In this document: one piece after another, positions 6,844-28,053 of the stretch
How positions within the stretch are numbered: the stretch's first letter is position 1
Layout of the letters: each line of letters opens with the position of its first letter
Made by a program: the position numbers and the translations under genes
Assembly: GCA_000517565.1 (NCBI GenBank)
Contig: CP007051.1
Coordinates: 1,235,001-1,279,926, forward strand
Direction: 5' to 3'
Length of the DNA: 44,926 nucleotides
Source: Desulfurella acetivorans A63
GTDB lineage: Bacteria > Campylobacterota_A > Desulfurellia > Desulfurellales > Desulfurellaceae
The notes under the pieces: generated by a model
The model's input: the letters and a program-made list of their open reading frames with translations, nothing else
Databases searched by the model: none
Told to the model about the DNA's origin: nothing

Positions 6844-6857
6844 TTGACATATATCAA
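6844..6857 (+). promoter_or_regulatory. CRP/FNR-family operator upstream of nrfH-hao
   Basis: TTGACATATATCAA is an FNR/DNR-like palindrome with one asymmetric position. It is extended by flanking AAA/TTT to a 20-bp near-palindrome. A -10-like TATGAT lies at 6875-6880. The identical 14-mer occurs upstream of narG at 18577-18590, which strongly suggests shared control. Confidence 0.7.
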
Positions 6858-6914
6858 TTTTTTAATAGCAAATTTATGATACGTTGTTTAAAAAATTGTA
6901 ATTTTGAGGTATTT

Positions 6915-7445
6915 ATGCAAAATCAAACCAGGCCTTTAAAAGCTATTGTAATAGCTATAATTGGTATTGTCATTGGTGTTTTATTATCATTTGCAACTTA
7001 CATTGGAGTTGAAAAAACAGCTGGCGAAAATTTTTGCGCATCGTGTCATTCAATGCAACCCATGGTTCAATCGTACACATTAGATGTGCATGGCGGAAAT
7101 AATCAATTTGGCTTTAAAGTTCAGTGCACTGATTGCCATCTGCCCCACAATAGTCTTCCAAATTATTTATTTACAAAAGCTAAAACTGGGCTTAACGATG
7201 TATTTTTTGAAACTTTTACAAATACTTCAAAAATAAATTGGGCTCAAAAATTAAAAGATCCAAATAAATATGTTTACGATAGCGGTTGTCTGAAGTGCCA
7301 CAGCAATCTTAAAGAAGAATCTCTACAAAATCAAAGAGCATTTTTAGCGCATAGGGCTTATTTTGCAAAAACAACTACTCAATCATGTGTGGACTGCCAC
7401 AGCAATGTTGGACACAAAGATTTAAAAGCATTTATTAAGTCTTAA
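6915..7445 (+). CDS. nrfH: Tetraheme cytochrome c, NapC/NrfH family quinol dehydrogenase
   Basis: This 176-residue protein has one N-terminal membrane anchor (about residues 9-30) followed by four CxxCH heme sites at C41, C71, C125 and C158. This is the size and pattern of NrfH/CycX proteins, which take electrons from menaquinol and pass them to a periplasmic multiheme reductase. The start at 6915 follows GAGG (6906-6909); an in-frame ATG at 6876 lacks a ribosome site and would spoil the anchor. The hao gene begins nine bases downstream, so the two form an operon and the protein is the probable electron donor to Hao. An FNR-like site lies upstream. Confidence 0.92.
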   Translation: MQNQTRPLKAIVIAIIGIVIGVLLSFATYIGVEKTAGENFCASCHSMQPMVQSYTLDVHGGNNQFGFKVQCTDCHLPHNSLPNYLFTKAKTGLNDVFFETFTNTSKINWAQKLKDPNKYVYDSGCLKCHSNLKEESLQNQRAFLAHRAYFAKTTTQSCVDCHSNVGHKDLKAFIKS

Positions 7446-7454
7446 GGGGGTTTT

Positions 7455-8929
7455 ATGAAAAAAACATTGGTAATTGTAGGTGTAGTGTTTCTTTTGGTTA
7501 TTGTTGGAAGTGCAAGCTGGTTTTTAAGTAAAGCAAATAAATCTCAAAACAGATTATAGCTGAAAATCCAATTGTTTCGCAAAACAATTCAAATTTACGC
7601 TATGCTAATATTGCCTACAGTGAAAAAATTAATATGTCAAAAGGTAAAGGTGTAACAAAAGAAGCTGCGACATGTATAGAGTGTCACGCACAAAAAACAC
7701 CTGCAATTGTACAGGATTGGTCTAAAAGCTCAATGGCACATGCTGGAGTTAGCTGCATTGATTGTCATGGTGTTTCAAAGGACAACCCTATGGCAAATCA
7801 AAATTGTCCTGGCGTAAAGGGCACAAATATTTATGTTAGCAAAATGGTATCACCAAAAACCTGTGCAAAATGCCACCCAAACGAAGTTAAAGAGTTTGAA
7901 GAAAGCGGTCACGCAAGAGCAGCTATCCATATAGTTGCGCTAAAGCCAGATCAGGCATTATTGGCACATGAAGATATGGGCATGCCACAGTATAAAGATG
8001 CGGTTTTACTTACAGGTTGCGCTCAATGTCATGGCTCTATTATTAAAATGGGTCCCAACCACGAACCCACTCAAGGCACATGGCCAAGTCATGGTATAGG
8101 TAATGTCTATCCAGACGGGGGTGTAGGAAATTGCGCATCCTGTCATTTTAACCATCAATTTTCCATAGCCCAGGCCAGAAAACCTTCGTCTTGTGCAACA
8201 TGCCATTTAGGCCCTGACCACCCCGACATAGAAGTCTATGATAATTCAGTTCATGGTGCCCTTTTTGCAGCGCATGGTGACAAATGGCATTGGGATAGCC
8301 CTCCTGGTGCATGGATACCTGGAAATGACTATAATGCACCAACATGTGCTACATGTCACATGAGTGGTGTAAATGGATTGCAACCAACACATAATATTGA
8401 TATGAGACTAAAATGGAATCTATGGGCACCAATTTCAAAAGAAAGGACAGGTGGTTACGAAACTGCAGCTTTTGAATACATGAAAACAGGTAAATTTACA
8501 GCTGGTAATCCTTTAGCTGGAAACCCAAAAGGTCCACAAGAAGCAAGAAAAGAAATGTTACAGGTATGCGCATCTTGTCATACTACTTCATTTGCATCTA
8601 ATTACATGGCACAAGCTGACAAACAAATAGAGCTTTACAATAAGTACGCTCACGCTGCAAGCGAAATGATTAATACTTTAGAAAAGAAACATTTAATGAT
8701 GAAAGATCCTTGGGCTGATCCTGCATTTAGAACATACTATTACATGTGGCACCATGAGGGCAGAAGGATGCGCCAGGGCGCTGTAATGGAAGGTCCAGAT
8801 TATTCGCATTGGCATGGTGTATTTCAACTTCAACAAAGTCTCAGGATTTTGCAGGCAATATACAATCAACGAATGAAAGATCGCAAAATTGATCCAAATC
8901 AGATAGGCGGCGTTGGCATGGGTGAATAA
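7455..8929 (+). CDS. hao: Octaheme hydroxylamine-oxidoreductase-like cytochrome (Hao), frameshifted near its N-terminus
   Basis: The product is a periplasmic octaheme cytochrome of the Hao family, with eight CxxCH motifs (CIECH, CIDCH, CAKCH, CAQCH, CASCH, CATCH, CATCH, CASCH) and a C-terminal helical part containing HHEGRRMRQGA and DYSHWHGVFQL. In Campylobacterota such enzymes are proposed to reduce nitrite to hydroxylamine. ATG 7455, nine bases after nrfH and with an AAGGGGG ribosome site, opens a signal/anchor peptide (MKKTLVIVGVVFLLVIVG) that hits a stop after 34 codons. The other frame continues from about 7547 with QIIAENPIVSQ into the heme domain. One extra A in the CAAAAC run near 7545 would restore a 491-residue protein. 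As written, the only internal start is ATG 7634, which lacks an export signal, so heme attachment would fail. Sequencing error, phase variation and real decay are all possible. Confidence 0.88.
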
Positions 8930-8940
8930 ACAACCAAATA

Positions 8941-8976
8941 AAAATCAAAGCTTAATATTAAGCTTTGATTTTTTTC
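8941..8976 (+). terminator. Terminator after hao
   Basis: A perfect 30-base palindrome (8942-8971, left arm AAATCAAAGCTTAAT) is followed by further T residues to 8975. It ends the nrfH-hao transcript. Confidence 0.85.
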
Positions 8977-8991
8977 TCAATAATTTTGTCA

Positions 8992-9020
8992 TTGAAAAGT
9001 TAATTCAAAATTGTATAATG
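8992..9020 (+). promoter_or_regulatory. Promoter of ccsA-resB
   Basis: TTGAAA (8992-8997) and a perfect TATAAT (9015-9020) are separated by 17 bp, about 58 bases before the ccsA start. No FNR-type palindrome is visible here, so the maturation genes may be constitutive. Confidence 0.7.
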
Positions 9021-9077
9021 AAATTGAGGCGAAAGTAGTGCAAACGATTTTTAATATTAAAATTAAAGAGGTTTTGA

Positions 9078-10031
9078 ATGTACTCTAATATTTTATCTAT
9101 TTCTAATTTTGTTTATATTGCAAGTGCTTTTGTTTTAATTTTGAGTTTTATTGTTAGAAAAAAAAGTATTGATGTTGCTGGAAAAAGCTTATTTGTTTTA
9201 GCATTTTTTATTGAATTTTTATACTTTACACTTAGATTCATTGAAACTTACCAAAAAGGCTATGATTATCTACCTGTTACAAATGCATTTGAATCGTTTG
9301 TTTTTTTTACGCTGTGTTTAGGTTTTTTGCAAACACTGATGATAAAAAAAACTTCTGTTTTTATAGTCCTTTTTAGTTCAATTGTTATAAGTGCAACACT
9401 TCTAGCATTATCTATAGCTGGATTTAGCCAGCATATAGAGCCACTTATACCAGCGCTTAAAAGCAACTGGCTTGTTGCACATGTTATAACTTCATTTTTA
9501 GCATATGCTGCATTTGCCATAAACTTTGTAGCAAGCTCATTTGTTTTGTACTCATCACAAAAACGCATTGACAAAATTGTTGGCTCAATAATGTTTGGAG
9601 GGATACTTAGCTTAATGTTTACAGCTGTTATTGTTAGCATAACTCATAGTAGCCCTTTGGTAGTAGGGATTGTATTTTTGGTATTAATTTCAACAATGTT
9701 ATTTGTTTTAAGCTTTATACTAAAGCCATATACAAGCAAAGAATGGATTGAAAAACCGCTTGTGTTTGGGTTTGTACTGCTAACAATAGGCATTATTACT
9801 GGTTCAATATGGGCAAAATACGCCTGGGGTGGCTATTGGAGTTGGGATCCCAAAGAAACGTGGAGTTTTATTACGTGGATTGTATATTTAATAAATTTGC
9901 ACTTTGCAAGAAAGAAAAAGAGTGCAAGATTTTTGGCTTATTTGGGTGTAATTGGATTTTTAAGCGTACTTATTACATACCTCGGTGTAAATTTTGTATT
10001 GCCAGGTTTACATAGCTATGGATCAAATTAA
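9078..10031 (+). CDS. ccsA: Cytochrome c biogenesis protein CcsA (ResC-type, System II)
   Basis: This 317-residue integral membrane protein has about eight spans. The WWD heme-handling motif appears as YAWGGYWSWDPKETWSFITW around residues 250-270. Conserved histidines flank it (for example the His in LVAHVITSFLAY and LPGLHSYG at the end). With ResB it forms the System II synthase that exports heme and attaches it to CxxCH motifs. The ATG at 9078 follows AGAGG. The resB start lies inside its last codons. Placement just after nrfH-hao fits the 12 heme sites those genes specify. Confidence 0.93.
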   Translation: MYSNILSISNFVYIASAFVLILSFIVRKKSIDVAGKSLFVLAFFIEFLYFTLRFIETYQKGYDYLPVTNAFESFVFFTLCLGFLQTLMIKKTSVFIVLFSSIVISATLLALSIAGFSQHIEPLIPALKSNWLVAHVITSFLAYAAFAINFVASSFVLYSSQKRIDKIVGSIMFGGILSLMFTAVIVSITHSSPLVVGIVFLVLISTMLFVLSFILKPYTSKEWIEKPLVFGFVLLTIGIITGSIWAKYAWGGYWSWDPKETWSFITWIVYLINLHFARKKKSARFLAYLGVIGFLSVLITYLGVNFVLPGLHSYGSN

Positions 10032-11115
10032 TATTTTTATTGACAAAATATATAATTTTTTAAAAAGTCTTACACTAGCAGTTGTTCTTCTTAGCTTGAT
10101 AGCTTTTTTTAGTGCAATAGGCACAATTGCCAGTAATGTTAAATTTTTAAAAGATTTAGGTTTAGACAATGTTTATTATTCAAAATGGTTTTTATTGCTA
10201 ATTGTATTGTTTGTAATAAATTTAGTGCTTTGCACTCTAAGTATGATACCAACTACAAAAGCACTATTTAGCCCAAAAGCACCAAATAAAATCTTTAAAA
10301 GCAAAAGAAAAGATACAAAAACACATTTAATCAATTTACTTAAATCAAAAAAACTCTATATTCAACAAAAAGATGATCTTATCGCAGCTTATAGATATCC
10401 AGTTAGAAAATTTGCCGTATACGGTATTCACCTTGGCATTTTTATTGTAGCTTTTGGCGCTTTGGTAGGCTCTATTTGGGGGTTTCGTGGTATAATGGAA
10501 ATTCCACAAAATGAGGCTAGCAATATCGTAGTAACAAGAAATAACTACTTAAGTTTACCCTTTTCTGTTTATAATAAAAATTTTACTGTAAGTTTTTATC
10601 ATAACAAAGATATACCATCTGAGTACAAAACTACAGGATACATTATTGATTCAACTCAAAAAATACCATTTAGTACAACAGTTAACCATCCATTTATACA
10701 CAAAGGCATATGGTTTTACCAGGCAAGCTACCAGCTAAACCCACATGATAGTTTTATTATTTTAAACGTAAACAATTCCAGGGTTCAGCTGTATTTGCAC
10801 AAGCCTGTATCTATTGACAATGCTCAGTTTTATCTAGCAAATTTGAGCTATTACAATTCAAAACCTATAGCTCTGTTGTATGTAGAATTACCTCAAGGCA
10901 GTGCGTCTGGATGGATAAAACTTGGTGATAGTGCAAACCTTGGCCCAATAAATATTGTTTTTGAGCAAGCCAAAGAAAGCTATATAACTATACTAAGCGT
11001 GGCAAAAGATCCCGGATCAAATATTGTAATTGTTGGTTTTATTATTATGATAGCAAGCTCAATGCTTATATTCTTGAGGTTCAGACGCAGAGTATACAAG
11101 GTAGAGCAAATTTAA
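10018..11115 (+). CDS. resB: Cytochrome c biogenesis protein ResB (CcsB)
   Basis: This 365-residue protein has three N-terminal spans, a large periplasmic domain (about residues 150-325) and a final span near 335-355 followed by a basic tail (LRFRRRVYK). This is the ResB/Ccs1 layout, the apocytochrome-binding partner of CcsA. ATG 10018 overlaps the end of ccsA by 14 bases; an upstream in-frame ATG at 9994 would sit deeper inside ccsA and adds non-homologous residues. Translation is probably coupled to ccsA. The gene converges with narI, with a hairpin between them. Confidence 0.9.
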   Translation: MDQINIFIDKIYNFLKSLTLAVVLLSLIAFFSAIGTIASNVKFLKDLGLDNVYYSKWFLLLIVLFVINLVLCTLSMIPTTKALFSPKAPNKIFKSKRKDTKTHLINLLKSKKLYIQQKDDLIAAYRYPVRKFAVYGIHLGIFIVAFGALVGSIWGFRGIMEIPQNEASNIVVTRNNYLSLPFSVYNKNFTVSFYHNKDIPSEYKTTGYIIDSTQKIPFSTTVNHPFIHKGIWFYQASYQLNPHDSFIILNVNNSRVQLYLHKPVSIDNAQFYLANLSYYNSKPIALLYVELPQGSASGWIKLGDSANLGPINIVFEQAKESYITILSVAKDPGSNIVIVGFIIMIASSMLIFLRFRRRVYKVEQI

Positions 11116-11145
11116 AAAAACAACAACCAAATTATATGGTTGTTG
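11114..11145 (-). terminator. Terminator of the nar cluster (minus strand)
   Basis: CAACAACC (11121-11128) and GGTTGTTG (11138-11145) form an 8-bp stem. On the minus strand the stem is followed by seven T residues (11114-11120). The plus-strand side is less T-rich, so it acts mainly for narI. Confidence 0.8.
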
Positions 11146-11155
11146 TAGCAATTAT

Positions 11156-11854
11156 TTAATAAGTACTGTATCTTCTTACTATCTGCATTGCTCTTTTTGG
11201 ATAAGAAAATACTATACTAAAGCCACTAAATACGTGTACAAGCCTACTAAATGGTAAAAGTAAAAATAATGTAAGTCCCATAAAAATATGGAACTTGTAA
11301 ATAAAAGGCATACCGTTTAGATAGCTTGAAGCGTTTGCTTTAAATAAGACAATTGATTGGGCATAATTTGCAAACTTAACAAGCCATTGGCCATCCTTAT
11401 CCAACAGATAAGAATAAGGAACACTCATGAGTCCTGCAGCAACTGTTAATAAAATCCATAACAAAACAACAAAATCCATTGTTGTAGATGTATAGTATAT
11501 ATAATCATTAAAAAATCTTCGTATAATTAGCAAAAACACACCTACTATGCAAATTATGCCAGATACTGAGCCAGCATATATTTCTATAATTTGATGTGTT
11601 TTATCTGTTAAACCAAATAAACCAAAAATAAAATGTGGTGTCAATAGTCCACCCAAATGCCCTAAAAAGAGCGCAAGTATTCCTATATGAAAAAGATTAT
11701 TAGCAACTCTTAGCTGATTTTTCTCTAAAAGTTCACTAGAGCTGGATTTCCAGTCAAGTGGCATATAAACAAACCTAAAAATACTCCCAACAACAAAAAT
11801 TGCTAAAACAATATAAGGGTAGATGCCAAACAAAAAATAATTAAGGTAGTCCAT
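11156..11854 (-). CDS. narI: Respiratory nitrate reductase gamma subunit NarI
   Basis: This 232-residue membrane diheme cytochrome b has five predicted spans. Histidines suited to heme ligation are in NNLFHIGILALFLGHLGG (two His) and in the C-terminal spans (YKFHIFMGLTLF and RLVHVFSG). NarI oxidises menaquinol and feeds the NarH iron-sulfur chain. It overlaps narJ by 14 bases. The frame is intact, unlike narG in the same cluster, and a terminator follows. Confidence 0.93.
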   Translation of the reverse strand: MDYLNYFLFGIYPYIVLAIFVVGSIFRFVYMPLDWKSSSSELLEKNQLRVANNLFHIGILALFLGHLGGLLTPHFIFGLFGLTDKTHQIIEIYAGSVSGIICIVGVFLLIIRRFFNDYIYYTSTTMDFVVLLWILLTVAAGLMSVPYSYLLDKDGQWLVKFANYAQSIVLFKANASSYLNGMPFIYKFHIFMGLTLFLLLPFSRLVHVFSGFSIVFSYPKRAMQIVRRYSTY

Positions 11855-12335
11855 CTAAAACCCCCTTTTTACTCAACACTTCAAAAATTACACAATATGG
11901 GCTTTCAAATTCTTGTAGCTTTTTATAAATATTTTCCAGAATACTCTTGTAAGGTGCAATATCTTCCAAGACTTCTTCTTTTTTAAGAAAAGATAGATAC
12001 TCTAAATACATTGGCAAAAAATCAGGTGTATGATTTTGTTGCGGTTTTAAGCCTAACTTAGAGTATTTTTCAATAAAGTCAAGCAACTTTTGCCCTTTTG
12101 TTTTATCATCTTTAAAATGCTCAAGCAAATACAAACTGCAAGATGGCGTTAAATCAAAAACAAAAGTATAGTGTTTTTGCTGATCTAATATGTCTATTTT
12201 TTCCATATAATCTAAAAGTGGCATCAAAAATTCCAGCTTATTTTTAACCGCAAATGCTCTAAATTCGCTAATGTAATTTGTTAATTCTTCACCTGGGTAT
12301 AAAAGCAAGACACTAAAGAGCTTTAAAGTCTTCAT
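11841..12335 (-). CDS. narJ: Nitrate reductase assembly chaperone NarJ
   Basis: This 164-residue soluble, helical protein has the NarJ/TorD-type features LFSVLLLYPGEELTNYI at the N-terminus and LPMYLEYLSFL in the middle. NarJ binds apo-NarG and controls molybdenum cofactor insertion and membrane docking. It is shorter than the ~230 residues of enterobacterial NarJ but comparable to compact forms. It starts three bases after narK and overlaps narI. Its usual client is broken in this sequence. Confidence 0.88.
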   Translation of the reverse strand: MKTLKLFSVLLLYPGEELTNYISEFRAFAVKNKLEFLMPLLDYMEKIDILDQQKHYTFVFDLTPSCSLYLLEHFKDDKTKGQKLLDFIEKYSKLGLKPQQNHTPDFLPMYLEYLSFLKKEEVLEDIAPYKSILENIYKKLQEFESPYCVIFEVLSKKGVLDGLP

Positions 12336-12338
12336 TTT

Positions 12339-13616
12339 TTATGCTTTGGCTTTTAATTTTAAATAATATGCAATAGCAATTGAAACTACAGCAAGTACAA
12401 CAAACACAATAAACCCTTTTGCATAACCAGCGCTTTTATATACTGCAACAAATTCCCCCATTATAGGCGGTATAACAAAACCGCCAAACGCACCAAGTCC
12501 GCCTACCCAGCCAGCAGCCCCGCCAACCGCGTCGCTTACGAGTTTTGGCACAAGTTTAAATACGGCTGCATTATTTACTCCCATGCCTATTGCAAGTACA
12601 ATTTCTGATAAAATTGCAAAACCTATTGAATTAGCTAAAAATAAACCTAAAGCACCAATACCCATAAGTGCAAGTGAAATAATTGCTGTATTTGCACCAC
12701 CTATTTTATCGGCAATAACACCGCCTGCTATACGAATAGCAGAAGTCAAAATAGAGTAAGTAGCAGTCAATAGCCCAGCATATACAAGGCTTAAATTAAA
12801 ATAAGACTTCCAGTATGTAGGTAGCCAAGCAGTTAAAGCAACAAAACCACCGAATGTGGTAAAGTATAAAATTACAAGCAACCATGTATTAAAATTTTTA
12901 GCAGACAAAGTCAGACTTTCAACAAGGCTTTTTGATGGAAAGAGTTCTTGTCCTAAACTTTTTGCTTGCTCAATGGCCTTTTTTTCATCCAATCCTTTTT
13001 GTTTTAATTGAAAATAAGGCGCATTTTTACCTGTTGCATAGTATAAGATTGTTCCTATTACCAAAAAACCTAACCAGATAAGATAAGAGTTGAATAAACC
13101 CAGTTTGTGTAGGGCTATTGGTAACAAAAAAGAGAAAATACCAGGCGCCAGATTACCAACACCAGCGTAAGTTCCCAAAGCAAAACCTTGCTTTTGTTGC
13201 GGATACCAGTATGAAACCTGACTGATTCCAACAGAAAAGGTAGCAATACCGCTTCCACTGAGCAACCCAAATAACAATAAAAGCTCATATACACCGCTTC
13301 TTAAGTTATTAAACATAACCATATATATAACAATTGATAATCCTAATAGTCCAATAATAGCAATCAACATTAAAATCAAAAACGGCTTTCTGCCACCTGT
13401 CGTATCTACCCATGCAGAAAATGGTATTCTAAGAAGTGATCCGGATAAAGCAGGCATTGCAACAAGCAGACCTACCATCTGTGGTGTTAAGTTCAAAATG
13501 TCTTTAAATTTAGCAGCAGTTGGTCCAAAAAGTGCAACAGCAGCAAAGCCGAAAAAAAATCCCAGAGTTGCGCCAAATAACCCCTGAGCGGGTGTCCCTT
13601 TAATATTGTTCATCAT
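12339..13616 (-). CDS. narK: Nitrate/nitrite transporter NarK (MFS)
   Basis: This 425-residue major facilitator protein has 12 spans. Diagnostic stretches are GFFFGFAAVALFGPTAAKF at the N-terminus, RIPFSAWVDTTGGRKPF in the first cytoplasmic loop, and the two Gly-rich nitrate signature regions (LFGLLSGSGIATFSVGISQVS and GWVGGLGAFGGFVIPP). NarK proteins import nitrate or exchange it for nitrite. Its ATG overlaps the narH stop (TAATG arrangement). Its place between narH and narJ gives the less usual order G-H-K-J-I. It is intact. Confidence 0.92.
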   Translation of the reverse strand: MMNNIKGTPAQGLFGATLGFFFGFAAVALFGPTAAKFKDILNLTPQMVGLLVAMPALSGSLLRIPFSAWVDTTGGRKPFLILMLIAIIGLLGLSIVIYMVMFNNLRSGVYELLLLFGLLSGSGIATFSVGISQVSYWYPQQKQGFALGTYAGVGNLAPGIFSFLLPIALHKLGLFNSYLIWLGFLVIGTILYYATGKNAPYFQLKQKGLDEKKAIEQAKSLGQELFPSKSLVESLTLSAKNFNTWLLVILYFTTFGGFVALTAWLPTYWKSYFNLSLVYAGLLTATYSILTSAIRIAGGVIADKIGGANTAIISLALMGIGALGLFLANSIGFAILSEIVLAIGMGVNNAAVFKLVPKLVSDAVGGAAGWVGGLGAFGGFVIPPIMGEFVAVYKSAGYAKGFIVFVVLAVVSIAIAYYLKLKAKA

Positions 13617-15055
13617 TAGCCTCCAAAATCATTTCTTAAAAAGCCAACAGTGCCTTGTTTTTTAAAATTATCCTGGTGAAATTCACTGTGAAGTGTTGGT
13701 ATAACATACCTATCTTCATATTTTGCAATAGCTAAATACCTATACATATCTTGAGCTTGATTTATGCTTAATCCCACTTGTTTTAACACATCTTCATCAA
13801 TTATACCTTCTACATTCTTTTTCCTAAAAAACCCCCTCAAAGCCATTAGTTTTTTTAATGCTGATACTATTGGTTTTCTATTTGAAGCGCACAAAAGATT
13901 TGCTAAATAATCAACAGGCAAGCTTAAGTCTTCAATATTGCCAAAAACTTCATCACTTTGAAATAACTCAGTTTTGTTGACAATTGGCGACAGTGGCGGT
14001 ATATAAAAATTCATTGGTAGTGTTCTAAATTCCACATGTAGACCAAAAGCAATTTTCCATTCAACCACCATCTTGTAGACAGGTGAGTTCTGTGCGGCTT
14101 CTATAAAATTTTCTGGTATACCATCTTTTCTGGCTTGCTTTATGACATTTTCATAAAAAGGATCTAAAAAGACACTTAATTGGGCTTCATACAAATCTTG
14201 TTTGTTTTGAGTCTTTGCAATTTGTTCGATTTTATCCTGATCGTATAGCAAAACACCAATATAGCGAATCTTTCCAACACAAGACTCGCTGCATACTGTA
14301 GGTTTTCCTACTTCAAGCCTTGGGTAGCATAATATACATTTTTCTGACTTTCCTGTTTTGTAATTGAAGTAGATCTTTTTATATGGACATGCACTTACGC
14401 ACATGCGCCAGCCTCTACATTTATTTTGGTCAATCAAAACAATGCCATCTTCATCCCTTTTGTATATGGCAGCAGACGGACAGCTTGCAACGCAGGCTGG
14501 ATTTAAGCAATGATTGCAAAGCCTTGGCAGATACATCATAAATGTATTTTCAAATTCTGAATAAATCTCTTTTTGCAAGTTTTCAAAGTTATAATCTTTT
14601 GAGCGATTTTCAAATTCACCGCCAAGGTCATCTTCCCAGTTTGGACCCCATTCTATCTCTATCTCTTTTTTCGTAATAGCTGATATTGGTTTTAGAGAAG
14701 GAAAATACTCTTCGTTTGATAATTTCAAATACTCGTAATCAAACTCGAAAGGCTCATAGTAGTCCTTTAATTTTGGCAGATTGGGGTTTGCAAATATATT
14801 TAACAAAATCGAAGTTTTTGATCCAAGGTTTAGTTTTAATTCATTGTTTTCAAGTTTCCATCCACCTTTGTATTTTGATTGATTTTCCCAATCTTTGGGA
14901 TATCCTATGCCTGGCTTTGTTTCTACATTATTAAACCATGCATATTCAAGCCCTTCCCTTTTTGTCCACACATTCTTGCATGTTACAGAACAGGTATGGC
15001 AGCCAATACATTTATCCAAATTTAGCACCATTGAAAGCTGAGCCTTTACCCTCAT
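13616..15055 (-). CDS. narH: Respiratory nitrate reductase beta subunit NarH
   Basis: This 479-residue iron-sulfur protein holds cysteines for four clusters: CIGCHTCSVTCKNVW near residue 16, CNHCLNPACVASCP, CRGWRMCVSACP (Trp in place of a Cys, the mark of the [3Fe-4S] site) and CILCYPRLEVG...CSESCVG. It carries electrons from NarI to NarG. The ATG at 15055 overlaps the narG stop as ATGA, typical of coupled nar subunits. It shows no frameshift or internal stop. Confidence 0.95.
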   Translation of the reverse strand: MRVKAQLSMVLNLDKCIGCHTCSVTCKNVWTKREGLEYAWFNNVETKPGIGYPKDWENQSKYKGGWKLENNELKLNLGSKTSILLNIFANPNLPKLKDYYEPFEFDYEYLKLSNEEYFPSLKPISAITKKEIEIEWGPNWEDDLGGEFENRSKDYNFENLQKEIYSEFENTFMMYLPRLCNHCLNPACVASCPSAAIYKRDEDGIVLIDQNKCRGWRMCVSACPYKKIYFNYKTGKSEKCILCYPRLEVGKPTVCSESCVGKIRYIGVLLYDQDKIEQIAKTQNKQDLYEAQLSVFLDPFYENVIKQARKDGIPENFIEAAQNSPVYKMVVEWKIAFGLHVEFRTLPMNFYIPPLSPIVNKTELFQSDEVFGNIEDLSLPVDYLANLLCASNRKPIVSALKKLMALRGFFRKKNVEGIIDEDVLKQVGLSINQAQDMYRYLAIAKYEDRYVIPTLHSEFHQDNFKKQGTVGFLRNDFGG

Positions 15056-18000
15056 AGCGCCTCCTGTGATTTTTGTTTTTTAGACCATGTAGGTTTTTGC
15101 AACTTTCTTACAACAACAAAATCGTCTCTGTTTGAACCTACAGTCCCGTAGTAATTAAAAGAATAAGATAGCTGGGCATAGCCTCCTATCATATGAAGCG
15201 GATTTAATAGTACTTTAATCACGCTGTTGTGCACTCCACCACGATTCTTGGTCCTTTCTGAGATTGGTGTATTTATAACTTTATCTTGAGCATGATACAT
15301 AAAAGCACTGCCTTTTGGTATTCTTTGGCTTACAACTACCCTGGCTAGCACAACACCATTTTTATTGAATGCTTCAATCCAATCATTGTCTTTTAAACCT
15401 AAAATTTTAGCATCAGACTCACTTATCCATATATGCGGTCCACCTCTTGAAAGCGTTTGCAATGTTAGCAAATCCACATATGTTGAGTGTATCCCAAACT
15501 TTTGATGAGCTGTACTCCATTTTAGTGTAAGCGTATTGTCTTCTTTGTTTATATTTGATAAAGATTTTGCATCAACTAAAGGCTTATAAACTGCAAAGTT
15601 TTCACCAAATAGCTGCATCCACTTGTGGTCCTGATAAAACTGAATTCTGCCTGTTAGTGTTCGCCACGGTATGTACTCATGTACATTCTGATAATTAGCG
15701 CTATATGGTATTTCTTTTGACTCAATACCGCTCCATATAGGCGAAGTAACTGTCCTTCGAGGTTGGATTTGTAAATCAACAAATTTTAAGCTGTAATCAA
15801 TTGGTGGCCTTATATTGTTGTGCAAGCTGCCTGTTTTTAAAGATAAATTATCAAATGCTTTATGCGATACTTTTGCATTGGTTTCGGGTGCTAACTCTAA
15901 AATCGCCTCGCATACTTCTTTGGCGTTTTCTATTTTAGCTTTATTATCAATTTCACCATTTAGCTTTTTTAAATACTCAACTTCTTCTTTTGTATCCTAA
16001 CTTACACCTTTTGCACCATTGCCAAGTTTTTCTAACAATGGGCCAAGCGTTGTATACTGCTTGTAAACATTCGGATAATCCCTCTCAATAATGCTTATCG
16101 TAGGAAAATTTTTACCTGGAATAATCTCTGTATTGTCTACTTTCCAATCTTTTGGCTCAAATGCTTGACCAAGCTCTGCAGGTGTATCGTGCATAAGGGG
16201 TGAAAGTACCAATTATTTTTGAACACCTAAATGATCTTTGGCAAGCTCTGAAAATTTTTTTGCAAGCTCTTTAAATATATCCCAATCATTTTTGCTTTCC
16301 CATAAAGGATCAAGCGCTTTGGAAAAAGGGTGTATAAATGGATGCATATCAGTTGTACTTAGATCTTCTTTTTCGTACCAGCTTGCAGCAGGCAAAACTA
16401 TATCCGAATAAATACATGTGGTAGACATTCGAAAATCAAGCGTTACAAGTAAATCAAGTTTACCTTCAACTGAATTTCTCCATACAATTTCTTTCGGACG
16501 CTTGCTTTCATCAATTTCTTTCGCTAAAACGCCAGATTTTGTACCAAGCAAATGTTTCAGGAAATACTCATGACCTTTAGAGCTTGCTCCAAGTAGATTT
16601 GAACGCCACACAAACATATTGCGCACAAAATTTGCTGGATTATCTGGGTCTTCAAAAGCAAATCTTATCCTGGACTCTTTAAGGTTGTTTATTAAATAAT
16701 CTTTTGGATCAAGATTTTGATTTTGAGCGTCTTTTATTATTTCTATTGGGTTTTTATCCAAATACGGTGTAGCTGGAAGCCAACCCATTCTAACAGCCTT
16801 TACATTAAAATCAGCTGGCGAATAATCCTTGTATGTATTTTCAGCCAAAGGTGATAACAAATCACCTATTTTTACATCTTCGTATCTAAACTGATCTGTA
16901 TGAAAGTAATAGAATGAAGTTGAATTCATTTGCCTTGGTGGTCTATACCAATCAAGCGCAAATGCAATCGCACTCCATCCTGCAAGCGGTCTTACCTTTT
17001 CCTGACCTACATAATGAGCCTACCCACCACCGGATTGACCGATACAGCCGCACATTGTAAGCATATTTATCACGCTTCGATAAATTGTATCGGTATAATA
17101 GTAATGATTAACTCCAGCACCAATTATAACCATCGATTTACCTTTTGTTAAAAGAGCATTTTTAGCAAACTCTCGTGCAATTTTAATTACAATTTCTTTT
17201 TTAACGCCTGTGAATTTTTCCTGCCAGGCTGGCGTGTATGCACAATCATCATCGTAAGTTTTAGCCGTATTTAAATCGTTTAAGTTTCTATCAATCCCAT
17301 AGTGAGCTGCTAATAGATCAAATACACTTGCTACTATATATTGATTGCCTTTTTTGTTAATTTTTAGTGCCGGCACTTTTCTTTTTATTATAGAATTGTC
17401 CGTAAAGTCTCCAAAACCAACTTCTACTACATCAGTAGCTATGTCAATTAGGCTAAGTTTTGGGTCTATATCTTTATTAGCTAAAGAGTCTTTTAAATGC
17501 AAATTCCATTTGCCATTATTTTCGTATCTAAAACCTATACTGCCATTAATTATTGTAGTCTGATGTCAATATGGAATTCTTTAAAAATTACATGACCCAT
17601 AGCTAGTGCTAGCGCAGCATCGCTGCCTGGTCGGGGCGCAACCCATACATCGGCAAACTTTGATGCTTCACTAAAGTCTGGCGATATGACAACAGTTTTT
17701 GTCCCCTTATAGCGTACTTCTGTGTAAAAGTGAGCATCTGGCCTTCTGGTTTGAGGTACATTGGAACCCCAAAGCACTAAATATGTAGAATTATACCAGT
17801 CTGCAGATTCTGGCACATCTGTTTGCTCACCAAATACTTGAGGAGATGACGGTGGTAAATCGCAATACCAATCATAAAAACTACCTACTGCTCCTCCGAT
17901 TAAAGATAAGTATCTAGCACCAGATGCATAGCTAACCATACTCATAGCCGGTATAGGACTGAAGCCAAAAATTCTATCTGGACCGTATGTTTTAATCGTA

Positions 18001-18530
18001 TATATATTTGCAGCAGCAATAATTTCTAAAGCTTCATCAAAACTTACTCTTACAAAACCACCCAAACCTCTTTTTTGTTTGTAGATTTTACTATTGTCTG
18101 ATTCAACAATAGCTTTCCATGCTTCCACTGGATTAAGTGTCTTCCTTTTTTCTCTGTATGGCTTTAACAACTCACTTCTTATTATGGGGTATTTTATGCG
18201 GTGAGGGCTATAAAGGTAACTTGAGTAGCTTGCACCACTTGGACAACCTCTTGGCTCATATTCAGGAAGGCCATCTTGTGTTTGTGGGTAGTCATTTTGT
18301 TGTATATCGTAGGTTATAATGCCGTTTTTTACAAATATTTGCCAACTACAAGAGCCTGTGCAGTTTACACCATGCGTGCTCCTAACAATCTTGTCATAAG
18401 AAAATCTGTTTCTATAACCATTTTCCCATGTCCTATCTTCCAGCCTTTCTTCAATAAAGCCGCTTGAATTTTTTTGAGATTTTTTAAAAAAAGAATAGCG
18501 CTCTAAAAAACCCATACCGCCCCTTTTCAT
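15052..18530 (-). pseudogene. narG: narG, respiratory nitrate reductase alpha subunit, broken by three stops and an internal deletion
   Basis: The translated pieces match NarG from end to end. The N-terminus has HGVNCTGSCSW (cluster ligands), EPRGCPSGASYS and SADWYNSTYLVLWGSNVPQTR; the end has GGYAQLSYSFNYYGTVGSNRDDFVVVRK. Four lesions are visible. Near 17550-17565 the frame changes and about 60 residues are missing between KEFHID and NGSIGFRYE. Three stops then lie in one otherwise open frame: TAG at 17020-17022, where NarG has Trp (GGGW-AHYVGQEK); TAA at 16213-16215 (QK*LVLSP); and TAG at 15997-15999, where Trp is expected (GVSW-DTKEE). Both Trp sites are one G-to-A change from TGG. The molybdenum catalytic subunit cannot be made as one chain. 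An FNR-type site lies 47-60 bp upstream. The start could also be ATG 18515, after AGGGG. Confidence 0.93.
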
Positions 18531-18547
18531 GATATTATTTATCTAAT

Positions 18548-18590
18548 AACATAAACAACTTTTTCAGAAAAAAAAATTGACATATATCAA
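18548..18590 (-). promoter_or_regulatory. CRP/FNR-type operator and -10 upstream of narG
   Basis: TTGACATATATCAA (18577-18590) is identical to the site before nrfH. On the minus strand a -10 TATGTT (18548-18553) starts about 30 bp from the palindrome centre, the spacing of a class II FNR-activated promoter. Confidence 0.75.
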
Positions 18591-18614
18591 AAATTTAAAA
18601 ATTTTTTCACTAAA

Positions 18615-19043
18615 TTATACCGCAGGGTTTTCTTCGTCTAATAGCCTCTTTTCTCCTTGCAATTTTTGAATTTCTTTTACATCTTGCATAACTTCCAGTG
18701 TTCCATAATAATCACCATTTTCATCGTAAACGGGAAAATATCTTATATATAAAAACCTACCTTCAAAATTAATCCAAAAATCTGCTGATTTTCTCTTTTT
18801 TGCTCTAAAATCATCAAGGATTTTTTGCACTAAGTGTAAACTTTTTGGCGGATGGCATTTTTGAACCTTTCTACCAATATCCAATTTTGTTCTTGCAAAT
18901 GTCCTGCCCTCACGCGGTAAGTTGAAATATACTACATTATCGTCTTTATCCACAAATGACACATCGCATGGCAGGTTATCTAAAACTCTTAGCAAAACTT
19001 TAATATCTAAATCTTCAAAAAGCTCTAAGGTTGATTCATTCAT
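18615..19043 (-). CDS. PAS-domain sensor protein (separate PAS half of a DUF438-type protein)
   Basis: This 142-residue protein is one PAS domain: DVSFVDKDDNVVYFN, GRTFARTKLDIGRKVQKCHPPKS, FWINFEGRFLYIRYFPVYDENGDYYGTLEVMQDV. The KCHPPKS stretch, with adjacent Cys and His, is typical of the PAS part of DUF438 proteins. ATG 19043 follows AAGGAGGTG and overlaps the upstream stop by eight bases; the longer frame lacks a ribosome site and homology. In many anaerobes the DUF438, hemerythrin and PAS parts are a single polypeptide; here the PAS part is a separate coupled gene. A role in sensing redox or nitric oxide is inferred from the hcp/nar context. Confidence 0.82.
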   Translation of the reverse strand: MNESTLELFEDLDIKVLLRVLDNLPCDVSFVDKDDNVVYFNLPREGRTFARTKLDIGRKVQKCHPPKSLHLVQKILDDFRAKKRKSADFWINFEGRFLYIRYFPVYDENGDYYGTLEVMQDVKEIQKLQGEKRLLDEENPAV

Positions 19044-20052
19044 CTTGCACCTCCTTTGGTAGCTCAAAGTAGCCAAGCTCATCGGATTCACTTTTAATAT
19101 CAGCCCAGTCTTTATCAGATAGCATATCAAGAGCTACATTGTATAAAATTTCCTGTTCTTTTTTTGTATGAAGTGCAAATGTCTCAAGCATATACCTATA
19201 ATTTGAAACTAAACGATCTACAAAATCTTCATAATTAATAGTTTCGTGATTATCAAGCAATTTTTCTATGCGGTTTCTTGCTTGCTTCATATTGTAGTGG
19301 TCTTGCCACATTATAGATGGAGGTTCTTCTACTCCATATTTTTCTATTACAGGAAACAGCGTATTTTCCTGGCGCGTGTTGTGATTGTCTTCTGCTTGTT
19401 TTTGCAGCTTTATGATCTGCTTTAGCTGCTCAATTACGCTTTGGGCTGAAGCATAATCTTGATAGTTTTTTAAAGTATTTGCTAAATTAAAACCATTTTC
19501 CATATACATCATAATTGCATCATGATCTTTTATAAGCCTGTAGAGAGGATGATTTTTATCTATGCGCATTCTTGAGCTTGAGATTTGCTCTTTGAATAAC
19601 TCCATATGAATATTGCAGGCTTTCATAAGATCGTCTGTTGTGTAACCTTCGTTTTTTAACTCGCTTTCAACAACTGCAATAAGCACTGGATCAGCTTTTT
19701 CTATCAAATCTTTAAAGCGATTTTTTGCTTCTTCCACATTTTCTTTATTATAAATTTGCTTTAATATAGCCTTTAGCTTTTCTTTGATCTCTTTTGTATT
19801 TGTATCAGCAGATTTTTTATCATTTACAAAACCGCTTTTTATACCATTTTCGATAATTTGTAAAAATTCTTCAAAACTGTAACCACCCCTTATTGCAACA
19901 TGAGCCAGATCCACTCTTGGTGCCATAAGCTGAACGATTACTTTATTTGTAAGCATTTTATAGAGCGGATTTCTAGAGTATAAATAATCAGGTATGTTTG
20001 GGTATGCTTCAAGGAGTTTGCTAAACTTATCTTTTGGTTTGTAATCAAGCAT
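19036..20052 (-). CDS. DUF1858/DUF438/hemerythrin-domain protein
   Basis: This 338-residue soluble protein has three parts. Residues 1-75 resemble DUF1858/ScdA_N (LLEAYPNIPDYLYSRNP...APRVDLAHVAIRGGYSFEEFL). About 85-165 resembles DUF438 (LKAILKQIYNKENVEEAKNRFKDLI). About 170-330 is a hemerythrin-like bundle with candidate iron ligands in IKDHDAIMMYM, DNHNTRQENTLFPVIEKYG and the HTKKEQEIL helix. ScdA/YtfE relatives repair iron-sulfur clusters after nitrosative stress. It lies between hcp and the nar cluster, with a hairpin after hcp, and overlaps the PAS gene by eight bases. Function in NO or oxygen defence is inference. Confidence 0.82.
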   Translation of the reverse strand: MLDYKPKDKFSKLLEAYPNIPDYLYSRNPLYKMLTNKVIVQLMAPRVDLAHVAIRGGYSFEEFLQIIENGIKSGFVNDKKSADTNTKEIKEKLKAILKQIYNKENVEEAKNRFKDLIEKADPVLIAVVESELKNEGYTTDDLMKACNIHMELFKEQISSSRMRIDKNHPLYRLIKDHDAIMMYMENGFNLANTLKNYQDYASAQSVIEQLKQIIKLQKQAEDNHNTRQENTLFPVIEKYGVEEPPSIMWQDHYNMKQARNRIEKLLDNHETINYEDFVDRLVSNYRYMLETFALHTKKEQEILYNVALDMLSDKDWADIKSESDELGYFELPKEVQDE

Positions 20053-20069
20053 TGTTCACCTCTAATAAT

Positions 20070-20094
20070 AAAGGAAGGCAAAAAGCCTTCCTTT
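20070..20094 (-). terminator. Terminator-like hairpin after hcp
   Basis: On the minus strand AAAGGAAGGC, a five-T loop and GCCTTCCTTT form a 10-bp stem, followed by ATTATTA. It would end or attenuate the hcp transcript before the DUF438 gene. Confidence 0.75.
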
Positions 20095-20103
20095 CTAAAA
20101 AAT

Positions 20104-21744
20104 TTACTTTCCTTGCATAATAAGCTCTAAATCTTGCTGGACTTCTCCAATAGGCTTTACATCAAAGTTTTCAACAATAACCTTGGCTACATTTGGTGAT
20201 AAAAATGCTGGTAGCGTTGGACCCAGCCTTATGCCTTTTACGCCCAAATATAGCAAAGCTAAGAAAACAGTTACAGCTTTTTGCTCATACCATGCTATAT
20301 CGTAAGAAATAGGAAGCTTATTAATATCGTCAAGCCCAAATGCTTCTTTTAGCTTTAGTGCAATAACAGCCAAAGAATAAGAGTCATTGCACTGTCCTGC
20401 ATCCAGTACCCTTGGTATACCGTTTATGTCACCTAAATTTAGTTTGTTGTAGCGATATTTTGCACAACCTGCTGTTAAAATGACAGTATCTTTTGGCAGG
20501 CTTTCAGCCAGATTTGTGTAGTATTTTCTTGTATTGTGTCTGCCATCGCATCCTGCCATTACAACAAACCTCTTTATTGCTCCAGAATTAACTGCTTCTA
20601 TTACTTTATCTGCCAAAGCCAGTACCTGATTGTGCGCAAAACCACCTACAATAGTTCCTGTTTCAATTTGAGTTGGAGGTGGACACTTTTTTGCCATCTC
20701 AATAATGGGTGAAAAATCTTTTGGCCTGCCATCTTTCCTATCTGGTATATGCTTCAATCCAGGATAGCCCACTACGCCTGTTGTAAATACCCTGTCTTTA
20801 TAGGAATCTCTTGGTGGCACAAGGCAGTTTGTAGTCATAAGAATCGGTCCGTTAAAAGATTCAAATTCTTTTGTTTGCAACCACCAGGCATTACCGTAAT
20901 TGCCTACAAAATGATCGTATTTTTTAAACTTTGGATAATAATTTGCAGGAAGCATCTCGCCATGAGTATAAACATCCACTCCAGTATTTTTTGTTTGCTC
21001 AAGCAATTCTTCCATATCCTTTAAATCATGCCCGGAAATCAGTATACCTGGTCTGTTGCGTGTACCTATGCTTACTTTTGTGATTTCTGGGTTACCGTAT
21101 GTAGATGTATTGGCTTTGTCTAAAAGTTCCATTGTCTTTACAGAAAACTCACCTGTTTTCATAACAAGGCTTATTAGTTCATCTTGACTTAAGTTTTCGG
21201 TTAATTGTGCAAGCGTATCTATCATAAAACTTGTAATTGACTCATCTTCAAAGCCAAGCACGCTTGCATGGTCGTAATATGCAGCCATACCTTTTAAGCC
21301 ATACACAATAAGTTCTTTTAAAGACCTTATATCTTCATTGGTTTCACTTAATACGCCTATACTTTTTGAAAATTCTAAAGCTTTTTGTTTTGTTTCAAAC
21401 TCATATAGGTTTGAATACGATACATTTTTTCCTTTAGAGCTCAAAAAAGAGCCAAGTAGCTTTGCTTGTGCATTTGTCTGCTTAATTTGCTCTATAACGC
21501 GTTCATCATCAAAATTGACATTTGTGATAGTCATAAATAGGCTTTCTGATACAAATTTCCCTGTAGGTTTTGGATCAAAACCGTTAGAAATTGCCTGTCT
21601 TGCTATAACCGATATACCTTTTAAATTATAAATCAATACATCCATTAAATTAGATGTATGATCCTCTTTGCCGCATATTCCTTTTTCTACACTGCAACCT
21701 ATACCGTGCATTGCCTCCTGGCACTGATAACAAAACATTGACAT
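20104..21744 (-). CDS. hcp: Hybrid cluster protein / hydroxylamine reductase
   Basis: This 546-residue protein matches hybrid cluster protein along its whole length. The N-terminal cysteine cluster is [13 protein letters not shown] followed by GICG. Further ligand regions are [12 protein letters not shown], the [13 protein letters not shown] segment, [29 protein letters not shown] and the final [11 protein letters not shown] stretch. Hcp reduces hydroxylamine to ammonia in vitro and also acts as an NO reductase. ATG 21744 is chosen because it is five bases from GGAGGTG; the in-frame ATG at 21774 has no ribosome site. A perfect TTGAC-N4-GTCAA palindrome precedes it. With Hao it would complete nitrite reduction to ammonia. 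Confidence 0.96.
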
Positions 21745-21774
21745 AAGCACCTCCGCTTTTTTTTCTTTATTCAT

Positions 21775-21815
21775 AGTTTAAACAATATTTTCTAAATTAA
21801 ATTGACGCATGTCAA
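21775..21815 (-). promoter_or_regulatory. Perfect HcpR/DNR-like palindrome and -10 upstream of hcp
   Basis: TTGACGCATGTCAA (21802-21815) is perfectly symmetric and matches the TTGAC-N4-GTCAA form known for HcpR/DNR-type CRP/FNR regulators of hcp genes. A -10-like TAAACT (21775-21780, minus) starts 28.5 bp from its centre. Confidence 0.8.
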
Positions 21816-21913: not shown

Positions 21914-21955
21914 TTAACATTAGTCAATTAAATTTATAAGGTTTTAGTGTAAAAT
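21914..21955 (+). promoter_or_regulatory. Degenerate CRP/FNR-type site and -10 upstream of the ygbA-like gene
   Basis: TTAACATTAGTCAA (21914-21927) differs from TTGAC-N4-GTCAA at one position. The -10 TAAAAT (21950-21955) starts exactly 29.5 bp from its centre. The predicted transcript start, about 21962, is almost at the ATG (21964), so the mRNA would have little or no leader. Confidence 0.55.
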
Positions 21956-21963
21956 AAAAAAAT

Positions 21964-22284
21964 ATGAAAAACAAGCAGGAAAAAATTAAACATGACAAAA
22001 AGGTTATTAAAAATTTTATCAAACTATACTGCAGAAAAAATCATTTAGAAAAGGGCGTAGAAGTTTACAAGGATGATTTATGCAAAGATTGTTACGAGTT
22101 GTTAAATTACGCTTACATGAAATTAGACAACTGCCCTTTAGACCCAAAACCCATGTGTAAAAAGTGTTTAATCCATTGCTACAGTAAAAAAAACAAAGAA
22201 AAAATTAAACAAATAATGAAATTTAGCGGTCTCTACCTAATAAAACACGGCAGGATAGATCTTCTTTTGCATTATTATTTTTAA
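21964..22284 (+). CDS. YgbA-family (nitrous-oxide-stimulated promoter family) protein
   Basis: This 106-residue soluble protein matches the YgbA family (PF11756 as I recall): CKDCYELLNYAYMKLDNCPLDPKPMCKKCLIHCY gives a four-to-six cysteine cluster (quoted in two parts: CKDCYELLNYAYMKL and CPLDPKPMCKKC), then IKQIMKFSGLYLIKHG. In E. coli ygbA is induced by nitric oxide through NsrR. The cysteines could hold zinc or an iron-sulfur cluster. It is divergent from hcp and has its own FNR-like site. No ribosome site precedes the ATG, consistent with a near-leaderless mRNA. The molecular function of the family is poorly known. Confidence 0.8.
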   Translation: MKNKQEKIKHDKKVIKNFIKLYCRKNHLEKGVEVYKDDLCKDCYELLNYAYMKLDNCPLDPKPMCKKCLIHCYSKKNKEKIKQIMKFSGLYLIKHGRIDLLLHYYF

Positions 22285-22291
22285 AAAAAGT

Positions 22292-22741
22292 TCATCCAAG
22301 TTTTGTTTTGCTTTTTAAATACCAATATATGCTTGGGTAACCAACTAAAAATTCTAAAATAATAACAATTATCCTGCCTATTATAGAACCTTGCGAAAAA
22401 AATACCACAATACTAATAAGCGGTATAAGCAAAAACAAAGCTCTCCAGGTAAGAGACATATAAATTAAAAGTGCGTTTAACCCAATAAAACCATAAGAAG
22501 GCAATATATTTTTGAAATATTCGTTTTTTAAACTTAATTTTTTGAATTCTTTGTATATAACAATAATTGAAAATAATATAAAAATCAAAAATATAGTTAC
22601 AAACAGCCAGATTTCGTTAATATAATACGCGGCTTTAAAAAAAATAAAAATCGATATTATTAAAACTAAAAATAATTTTAAGCAAATAGTAGACCATAGT
22701 TTAAAAGCAATATCTGGTAAATCTTTTCCTTTGATCGCCAT
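22292..22741 (-). CDS. Small membrane protein of unknown function under FNR-type control
   Basis: This 149-residue protein has four to five predicted spans (KLFLVLIISIFIFF, LFVTIFLIFILFSIIVI, FIGLNALLIYMSL, ALFLLIPLISIVVFF, IIVIILEFLVGYP) and a short hydrophilic start (MAIKGKDLPDIAFKLW). I do not recognise a family. A perfect FNR palindrome with a well-placed -10 lies directly upstream, so the gene is likely induced with the neighbouring nitrogen-oxide genes. The predicted transcript start coincides with the ATG and no ribosome site is present. It converges with the ygbA-like gene seven bases away. Confidence 0.7.
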   Translation of the reverse strand: MAIKGKDLPDIAFKLWSTICLKLFLVLIISIFIFFKAAYYINEIWLFVTIFLIFILFSIIVIYKEFKKLSLKNEYFKNILPSYGFIGLNALLIYMSLTWRALFLLIPLISIVVFFSQGSIIGRIIVIILEFLVGYPSIYWYLKSKTKLG

Positions 22742-22747
22742 ATTTTG

Positions 22748-22789
22748 ATTTTAAACAAGTTTTGTCCAAAAAGAATTGATTAAAATCAA
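22748..22789 (-). promoter_or_regulatory. Perfect FNR box and -10 upstream of the membrane-protein gene
   Basis: TTGATTAAAATCAA (22776-22789) is a perfect TTGAT-N4-ATCAA site. The minus-strand -10 TAAAAT (22748-22753) starts exactly 29.5 bp from its centre, which is class II spacing. The predicted start of transcription falls at about 22741, the A of the ATG. Confidence 0.75.
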
Positions 22790-23076
22790 ATATTTAGTAA
22801 TTATTTTCATTCAATTTTGATAATAACCAAATCGTTTTTGATATGCATAGCTTCATAATCTTTTTAAAACTTTTCTTTGTTGTTATTTTAATAAGATTCA
22901 GGTACCCAAAATCTTTAAATAACTCTACTGTGCTGCTTTATTCTTCAATATATTTGCCTGATTTCAGTATTTTAATTCTTTTTTAGCCCGTATAAAAGAT
23001 GCAACTTTATCTTTATATTAAATATAATATAATCGTAAAGGCATCATATGAAACAAAAAGTATAGCCAGATTAAGC
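22790..23076. other. AT-rich gap without a clear gene
   Basis: No start-to-stop gene is visible here. On the minus strand one frame stays open for 48 codons (22937 down to a stop at 22794) without a start codon (ELFKDFGYLNLIKITT...), which could be the tail of a lost gene. It lies next to the truncated ABC permease and the decayed transposase, so it is probably part of the same scar. Confidence 0.4.
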
Positions 23077-23349: not shown

Positions 23350-23379
23350 AACCCATTCCCCAAAGGGTTTTCATTTTTT

Positions 23380-27503: not shown

Positions 27504-27561
27504 TGTAAACCTCCTTGTAAAACATAAGATAGTTTTTTATGTTAAATTTTTATTTTCAAAA

Positions 27562-28043: not shown

Positions 28044-28053
28044 AAACCCTTCT

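Follow-up and report, generated by a model that had tools for sequence, protein, structure and literature searches.

A probable relic of a nitrate-to-ammonium respiration cassette in Desulfurella acetivorans A63

Gene content of the locus

We analysed a 44,926-nucleotide stretch of contig CP007051.1 from Desulfurella acetivorans A63 (hereafter, the window), in which positions 6844-21815 carry genes for a membrane nitrate reductase (Nar), a tetraheme NapC/NrfH-family protein, an octaheme cytochrome (Hao) and a hybrid cluster protein (Hcp). Pfam and NCBIfam scans placed nrfH, the octaheme hao, ccsA/resB, the nar genes in the order narG-H-K-J-I, and hcp within 15 kb. The gene content of the original prediction therefore stands, while the intactness of the set does not: narG is a pseudogene and hao is frameshifted. 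We read the locus as probably the relic of a nitrate-to-ammonium respiration cassette, in which narG has been inactivated, the frame of hao has been lost and Hcp persists for defence against nitrosative stress. The features are as follows, by window position.

6844..6857, no strand, CRP/FNR-type palindromic site TTGACATATATCAA before nrfH (1 mismatch to TTGACNNNNGTCAA)
6915..7445, + strand, nrfH/haoC, tetraheme NapC/NrfH-family protein, open (PF03264, E 3.7e-36)
7455..7559, + strand, hao N-terminal anchor, detached and out of frame, stop after 34 residues (from comparison with congeners)
7634..8929, + strand, hao body with eight CxxCH motifs, open, without signal or anchor (PF13447)
9078..10031, + strand, ccsA-type cytochrome c assembly protein (PF01578, E 6e-41)
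9994..11115, + strand, resB-type cytochrome c assembly protein (PF05140, E 1.2e-44)
11156..11854, - strand, narI (PF02665, E 3e-65)
11841..12335, - strand, narJ chaperone (PF02613, E 2.9e-11)
12339..13616, - strand, narK-like MFS transporter (PF07690; TIGR00886 173.8 bits, under the cut-off of 311.7)
13616..15055, - strand, narH (TIGR01660 799.9 bits, over cut-off)
15052..18530, - strand, narG pseudogene (178-bp deletion at about 17563; stops at 17022, 16215 and 15999)
18577..18590, no strand, palindromic site before narG (1 mismatch to TTGACNNNNGTCAA)
18615..20052, - strand, PAS-domain and DUF438/hemerythrin-domain genes between narG and hcp (domain scan)
20104..21774, - strand, hcp, hybrid cluster protein, open (Prismane, E 5e-175)
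21802..21815, no strand, exact palindromic site TTGACGCATGTCAA before hcp (0 mismatches)
21914..21927, no strand, related site before the divergent YgbA_NO-family gene (1 mismatch)
21964..22284, + strand, YgbA_NO-family small protein, divergent from hcp (PF11756, E 1.7e-23)

The Hao of the window combines eight CxxCH motifs with the PF13447 domain and thus falls in the HAO family of octaheme cytochromes, with 4qo5 and entries for hydroxylamine oxidoreductase (HAO) as solved relatives. Its tetraheme neighbour matches PF03264 (NapC/NirT family) and scores 85 bits against the NrfH equivalog model, below the cut-off of 134.2; HaoC-like would be a safer name for it than NrfH.

Lesions in narG and hao

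Two congeners, G001 and G002, hold open copies of both damaged genes. The narG ortholog of G002 encodes 1214 aa (TIGR01580, 1815 bits) and the G001 frame is also open; relative to both, the window narG lacks 178 bases near 17563, a deletion that shifts the frame. Nonsense codons follow at 17022 (TGG to TAG), 16215 (GAA to TAA) and 15999 (TGG to TAG), and the Pfam and NCBIfam scans recognised the N-terminal part of NarG alone, with no full-length protein in the window. At the 3' end of narG, a 1-base difference from G002, where the window matches G001, was not counted as a lesion. We rejected sequencing error as the source of these lesions, given a 178-bp deletion and three nonsense codons set against two open orthologs. 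Recoded stops were rejected as well, since the deletion also shifts the frame and the stops are both TAG and TAA.

The damage to hao is smaller. One base of a CC pair is lost near 7550, just behind the membrane anchor, so that the open reading frame (ORF) from 7455, which holds the anchor, breaks off at a stop after 34 residues, and the eight hemes are encoded in another frame. A genome search with the G002 Hao protein matched anchor and body as separate pieces and found no second Hao in the genome. In G002 (491 aa) and G001 (486 aa), hao is open with the anchor in frame; no exported, membrane-anchored or periplasmic Hao is encoded in the window.

It could be argued that the lesions are partly artefact, hao being intact apart from a single-base error and the NrfH-Hao pair still reducing external nitrite or hydroxylamine, with just Nar lost. 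The absence of one base alone fits such an error, as does a Hao body 98-99% identical to the open G002 protein, with a ratio of nonsynonymous to synonymous change (dN/dS) of 0.115. However, hao and narG are the only broken genes among 17 compared between the window and G002, and four lesions in narG cannot arise in this way; we regard this explanation as unlikely. The nrfH genes of the window and G002 differ by one base at the 3' end and are open in each.

For the remaining nar genes, dN/dS between the window and G002 was 0.379 (narI), 0.220 (narJ) and 0.125 (narH), values resting on just 5, 9 and 17 synonymous changes, compared with 0.017-0.115 for 13 other genes and 0.19 for pepSY. The narJ gene is fast between G002 and G001 as well (0.369). 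These ratios hint at relaxed selection in narI, narJ and narH. Given the four lesions in narG and the separation of Hao from its anchor and signal, no nitrate reduction would be expected in D. acetivorans A63, and probably no Hao-based nitrite reduction.

Other nitrate and nitrite reductases in the genome

The D. acetivorans A63 assembly (1.82 Mb in 2 contigs, 100% complete) was searched for enzymes that might stand in for the broken ones. NrfA had been noted as missing from the window, and PF02335 has no match anywhere in the genome. No NapA was found: four molybdopterin genes lie elsewhere in the genome, and of the three scanned none passed the NapA cut-off. One of these is Fdh-like and over the Fdh cut-off, one is PhsA/Psr-like and under its cut-off, and one is unassigned; the fourth, unscanned, is NuoG by eye. 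No NirB was found either, the NIR_SIR family being present just as an adjacent pair read by eye, without a named-model scan, as DsrAB. On these results we rejected a NirB or NrfA elsewhere that would explain ammonification. Because NrfA, NapA, NirB and a second Hao were not found, no enzyme of the searched families makes up for the loss of narG and hao; the searches did not extend to NirK, NirS or further types of nitrate or nitrite reductase.

Across the class, none of 25 genomes (a search of the phylum returned no genomes beyond these) had a protein over the NrfA cut-off, and four had weak PF02335 matches below it. These matches (L035-L039, in G004, G005, G014 and G021) are open frames of 545-558 aa and may be larger multiheme cytochromes of another kind. 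In D. acetivorans A63, itself a sulfur reducer, the DsrAB-like pair (G000:C1:1358419-1363033) has a NarI-family gene, DsrM-like by position, about 2.4 kb away.

Class and kinship of the octaheme protein

The solved relatives of the window Hao include hydroxylamine and hydrazine dehydrogenases, which leaves room for the idea that it is a true hydroxylamine dehydrogenase, or a cytochrome without a role in nitrate respiration. We examined the position of the P460 cross-link tyrosine, which we take to be residue 467 of 1fgj (counted from C360). As reference, a 98-residue HAO stretch was matched to 55 of 369 genomes from the class of Lamprobacter, and the best eight loci, from eight genomes (L139/L140 and L141/L142 being near-identical pairs), were aligned with 19 rows of the epsilonproteobacterial-type Hao (εHao); three HAO records from a plasmid search were left aside. 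All eight HAO-type proteins have Tyr in this column, within the motif GGWTYTEGW or a variant; the εHao rows have His (17/19) or Gln (2/19), and the window protein has His, so the cross-link tyrosine is absent, although a near-invariant Tyr two columns earlier (Phe in G011, Trp in L069) makes an alignment shift possible. By sequence, the best solved-structure match is 4qo5 (profile E 6.2e-71), ahead of the HAO entries. This octaheme cytochrome is from Ignicoccus hospitalis, and its aligned C-terminal segment differs from that of the window protein (QDWTTFKRG versus PDYSHWHG). The tyrosine result agrees with the report on Nautilia Hao, as far as the available text of that report goes (PMC2628731).

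To place the protein among its relatives, genome contigs were scanned with a seven-sequence alignment, which gave at least 565 relatives; the best 80 were analysed, and the identities and locus counts below refer to these. The closest sequences outside the genus (70-73% identity) come from four metagenome-assembled genomes (MAGs) named Syntrophobacteraceae or Deltaproteobacteria. Next are the Campylobacterota, with Sulfurovum, Arcobacter, Sulfurimonas and others at 61-64%, Helicobacter at 53-54% and Nautiliaceae at 43-44%. Two quick trees unite the three congeners with the four MAGs (Shimodaira-Hasegawa-like approximate likelihood ratio test, SH-aLRT, 100) in a group that sits inside a Campylobacterota Hao set (SH-aLRT 95-97). 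A separate group (100) holds the Nautiliaceae, two loci of other phyla and three order-mates, G011, G013 and G014. Both groups lie within a wider set of 26 rows (99); a fork between them is weak (41). The 89 rows of the second tree comprised the window, two congeners, four relatives from the class, 76 of the 80 loci and, as outgroup, six of the eight HAO proteins. This tree omitted L076, L095, L097 and L129 (missing, wrong or cut ORFs), G023 (long branch) and the split G015.

A close kinship to Nautilia Hao was thus not recovered, the Nautilia protein being in a separate group of the wider set. Plain descent of Hao with the order-mates was also rejected, at 44-47% identity and with a separate tree group. 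The window protein does, as anticipated, stand apart from the true hydroxylamine oxidases: it lacks the cross-link Tyr and falls outside the HAO outgroup branch. With the 4qo5 match ahead of the HAO entries and hao linked to nar in four other genomes, a dehydrogenase, or a cytochrome unconnected to nitrate respiration, is very improbable.

An intact cassette in other genomes

The predicted pairing with membrane Nar is real, and it recurs as a same-strand gene run in the four MAGs. In all four of these closest loci, of Desulfobacterota type, nrfH, hao, narG and narH are consecutive on one strand. They are followed by narJ and narI in three of the four; the fourth contig ends. In three of the four, hcp lies upstream on the same strand, with one intervening gene in L054; L053 shows none within the 5.5 kb upstream of nrfH. 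PF02335 had no match in the four MAG genomes, whose completeness is not stated. A linked Nar-εHao cassette, mostly with hcp, therefore exists across phyla. Directly after narI, two of the loci encode a SLAC1-family anion channel (L054:18103-19149 and L055:13576-14607), a possible nitrite or nitrate channel; no NarK match was found in those loci.

Among the 80 loci, NarG (at least 400 aa aligned) was found at 4, NapA at 10, Hcp (at least 300 aa) at 6 and NrfH (at least 100 aa) at 69, counts that are lower bounds because many loci end at contig ends. Within the GTDB order of the MAGs (39 genomes), four genomes have a cassette-type Hao at 71-73% identity, 31 others have a best match of at most 42% and four have none. 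The NarG of the genus is 52-53% identical to that of the MAGs versus 44-46% (main stretch) to the class members G019 and G021, and being nearer to the MAGs than to its class it fits a shared transfer. The Hcp of the MAGs, at 62-63%, is no closer than that of two other Desulfobacterales loci, L111 and L117 (63%), so the hcp link is at best a weak sign of co-transfer, and Hcp identity does not strengthen the case made by NarG.

We tentatively raise the possibility, short of favouring it, that haoC-epsilonhao-narGHJI, usually with hcp and under a shared CRP/FNR-type operator, is a horizontally moving cassette. It may have passed between Campylobacterota-type donors, Desulfurella and Desulfobacterota, and may now be in the course of loss in sulfur reducers, with narG and hao broken first and hcp kept.

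Shared operator-type sites and neighbouring stress genes

As had been noted, nrfH, narG and hcp share an operator type, TTGACNNNNGTCAA, at 6844 (1 mismatch), 18577 (1 mismatch) and 21802 (exact). The window holds 5 sites at 1 mismatch or fewer versus 1.64 expected, a number reached in 2 of 100 shuffles; at 2 mismatches, its 29 sites are not above chance (22.9 expected). Both congeners carry such sites ahead of the same three genes (for nrfH, narG and hcp in turn, exact, exact and 1 mismatch in G001; 1 mismatch, 1 mismatch and exact in G002). An exact TTGACNNNNGTCAA also lies at the 5' end of a hemerythrin gene in G001 (L026:10394). Each MAG locus also has a TTGACNNNNGTCAA site with 0-1 mismatch, which precedes hcp by about 90-105 bases in three of them and nrfH in the fourth; the whole loci have 1, 2, 1 and 1 sites versus 0.27, 0.33, 0.56 and 0.30 in base shuffles. 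The genome encodes one clear CRP-family protein (C1:72233, 219 aa) and one weak match, and a regulator of this family acting at the sites is a prediction.

The YgbA_NO gene, divergent from hcp and preceded by a palindromic site of its own, suggests a regulon for nitrosative stress, not a purely respiratory one. Beyond hcp, the window holds short ORFs at 22292-24329, between hcp and the stress genes, and then an ODP-family protein (flavodiiron-like by eye) and a hemerythrin at 26313-28452. Among the short ORFs are an ABC-transporter-like piece recognised by eye (23077-23349) and a transposase-like ORF without a Pfam match (23676-24329), which may mark insertion or decay beside the cassette.

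Role of Hcp and interpretation of the locus

The hcp gene is the sole Prismane-family gene found in the genome, with a full-length domain over cut-off, and it is open and constrained (dN/dS 0.055 versus G002 and 0.035 versus G001). A second case comes from G003, a 78% complete genome from another family of the order. Its hcp is open and 85.5% identical to that of the window, and its hao survives as scraps with stops in several frames beside hcp, near a contig end (L182:8680-9053, G003:C28). No other Hao match was found in this assembly, though a copy elsewhere is possible. An hcp that stays open in two genomes with a broken hao suits a role in nitrosative stress better than an obligate step after Hao.

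This bears on the original prediction that the reverse-HURM pathway proposed for Nautilia operates here with Nar. In that pathway Hao makes hydroxylamine from nitrite, and Hcp converts the hydroxylamine to ammonium after its entry into the cytoplasm. The position of hcp in the same cluster under the same operator type, the absence of the cross-link Tyr and the lack of NrfA and NirB are all in keeping with that scheme, and Nautilia physiology was described as consistent with free hydroxylamine in the part of Hanson 2013 available (PMC3701875). In the same text, though, its authors could not exclude direct reduction to ammonium. A YgbA_NO gene with the same operator type points instead to nitrosative stress, and Hcp is open where hao is broken (G000, the window genome, and G003). 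Moreover, the nitrate reductase, NapC/NrfH donor, Hao and Hcp are all open in G001 and G002, but with narG dead and hao frameshifted they are not all working genes in D. acetivorans A63. We consider it doubtful that reverse-HURM describes this locus, and the use of its logic in this strain is not supported. Hcp need not be the second step after Hao, because εHao has been reported to form ammonia itself and hcp is open where hao is broken. It is more likely that εHao reduces nitrite straight to ammonium, with Hcp protecting against nitrosative stress, than that it makes hydroxylamine for Hcp.

In its open form, as in the two congeners and four MAGs, the cassette would work as follows. Nitrate reduction by membrane NarGHI would be cytoplasmic, since the NarG start has no twin-arginine motif, and nitrite would be moved out by NarK or an anion channel. 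A quinol-fed NrfH(HaoC)-εHao pair would then reduce nitrite to ammonium in the periplasm, with CcsA/ResB serving heme attachment. Hcp, YgbA_NO and the hemerythrin-domain proteins may handle leaked NO or hydroxylamine, Hcp and YgbA_NO under the shared CRP/FNR-type operator. The pathway is thus real as a gene set and probably dead in D. acetivorans A63.

Several points weigh against reading the locus as such a relic. The narG remnant still has a dN/dS of 0.07 versus G002, so its inactivation is recent; narH, narJ, narI, narK and nrfH remain open; and the single-base hao lesion could be a sequencing error. Ammonium as the product of the Desulfurella Hao is a prediction. That εHao reduces nitrite to ammonia is reported at second hand, in a sentence of PMC9938260 that cites Haase 2017. 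A homolog of the NAMH_1302 Fe-S protein, the proposed electron donor of Hcp, is given as missing in D. acetivorans by Waite 2017 (PMC5401914).

Genome surveys score pathways by homology, and a published inventory credits D. acetivorans with this one although its narG can no longer yield a functional enzyme and its hao probably cannot either. Relatives with an intact cassette offer a small system in which to ask if εHao can be fed by Nar. They would also help to decide between a pathway step and a stress function for Hcp, a question raised by the open hcp of two genomes with a broken hao.

Comparison with known systems

The nearest known arrangement is the εHao/HaoCA module of Campylobacter, Nautilia and Caminibacter, whose name and definition reportedly go back to Haase 2017. 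The window shares with it a tetraheme NapC/NrfH protein directly before an eight-CxxCH Hao, the lack of the cross-link tyrosine and the lack of NrfA. It differs in that the Nautiliaceae-type Hao belongs to another group (43-44% identity) and that the window hao is frameshifted; the Nautiliaceae loci L115 and L122 are near Nap, not Nar. The reverse-HURM of Nautilia profundicola (Hanson 2013; Campbell 2009) likewise combines a quinol-linked NapC/NrfH protein, Hao and Hcp without NrfA or NirB. Nap is used there whereas Desulfurella has Nar, the hydroxylamine step is unproven there and hypothetical in Desulfurella, and the pathway is broken in D. acetivorans A63.

In open-licence papers, we found no report of a broken narG or hao or of a linked hcp-nrfH-hao-nar cassette, and the main text of Florentino 2017 mentions neither nitrite nor hydroxylamine. 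What is already known, from the accessible parts of two papers, is the Nar and reverse-HURM inventory of Desulfurella (PMC5401914) and the occurrence of Nar with εHao in one genome, that of Candidatus Thiovulum stygium (PMC9938260). As described there, Thiovulum has narGH and epsilonhao in one genome and no formate-dependent nitrite reductase, like Desulfurella, but it also has nap, and nar-hao linkage is not described in that portion of the paper.

Waite 2017 (PMC5401914) already reports a Desulfurella NarG and credits D. acetivorans with every part of the reverse-HURM set but the Fe-S protein; the text available mentions neither the narG and hao lesions nor the gene linkage. It also treats the pathway as ancestral to the group, with transfers from the group to other bacteria. 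Our Hao trees fit the transfers. Plain descent would not put the Desulfurella copy with the MAGs, as these trees do, and away from its order-mates G011, G013 and G014.

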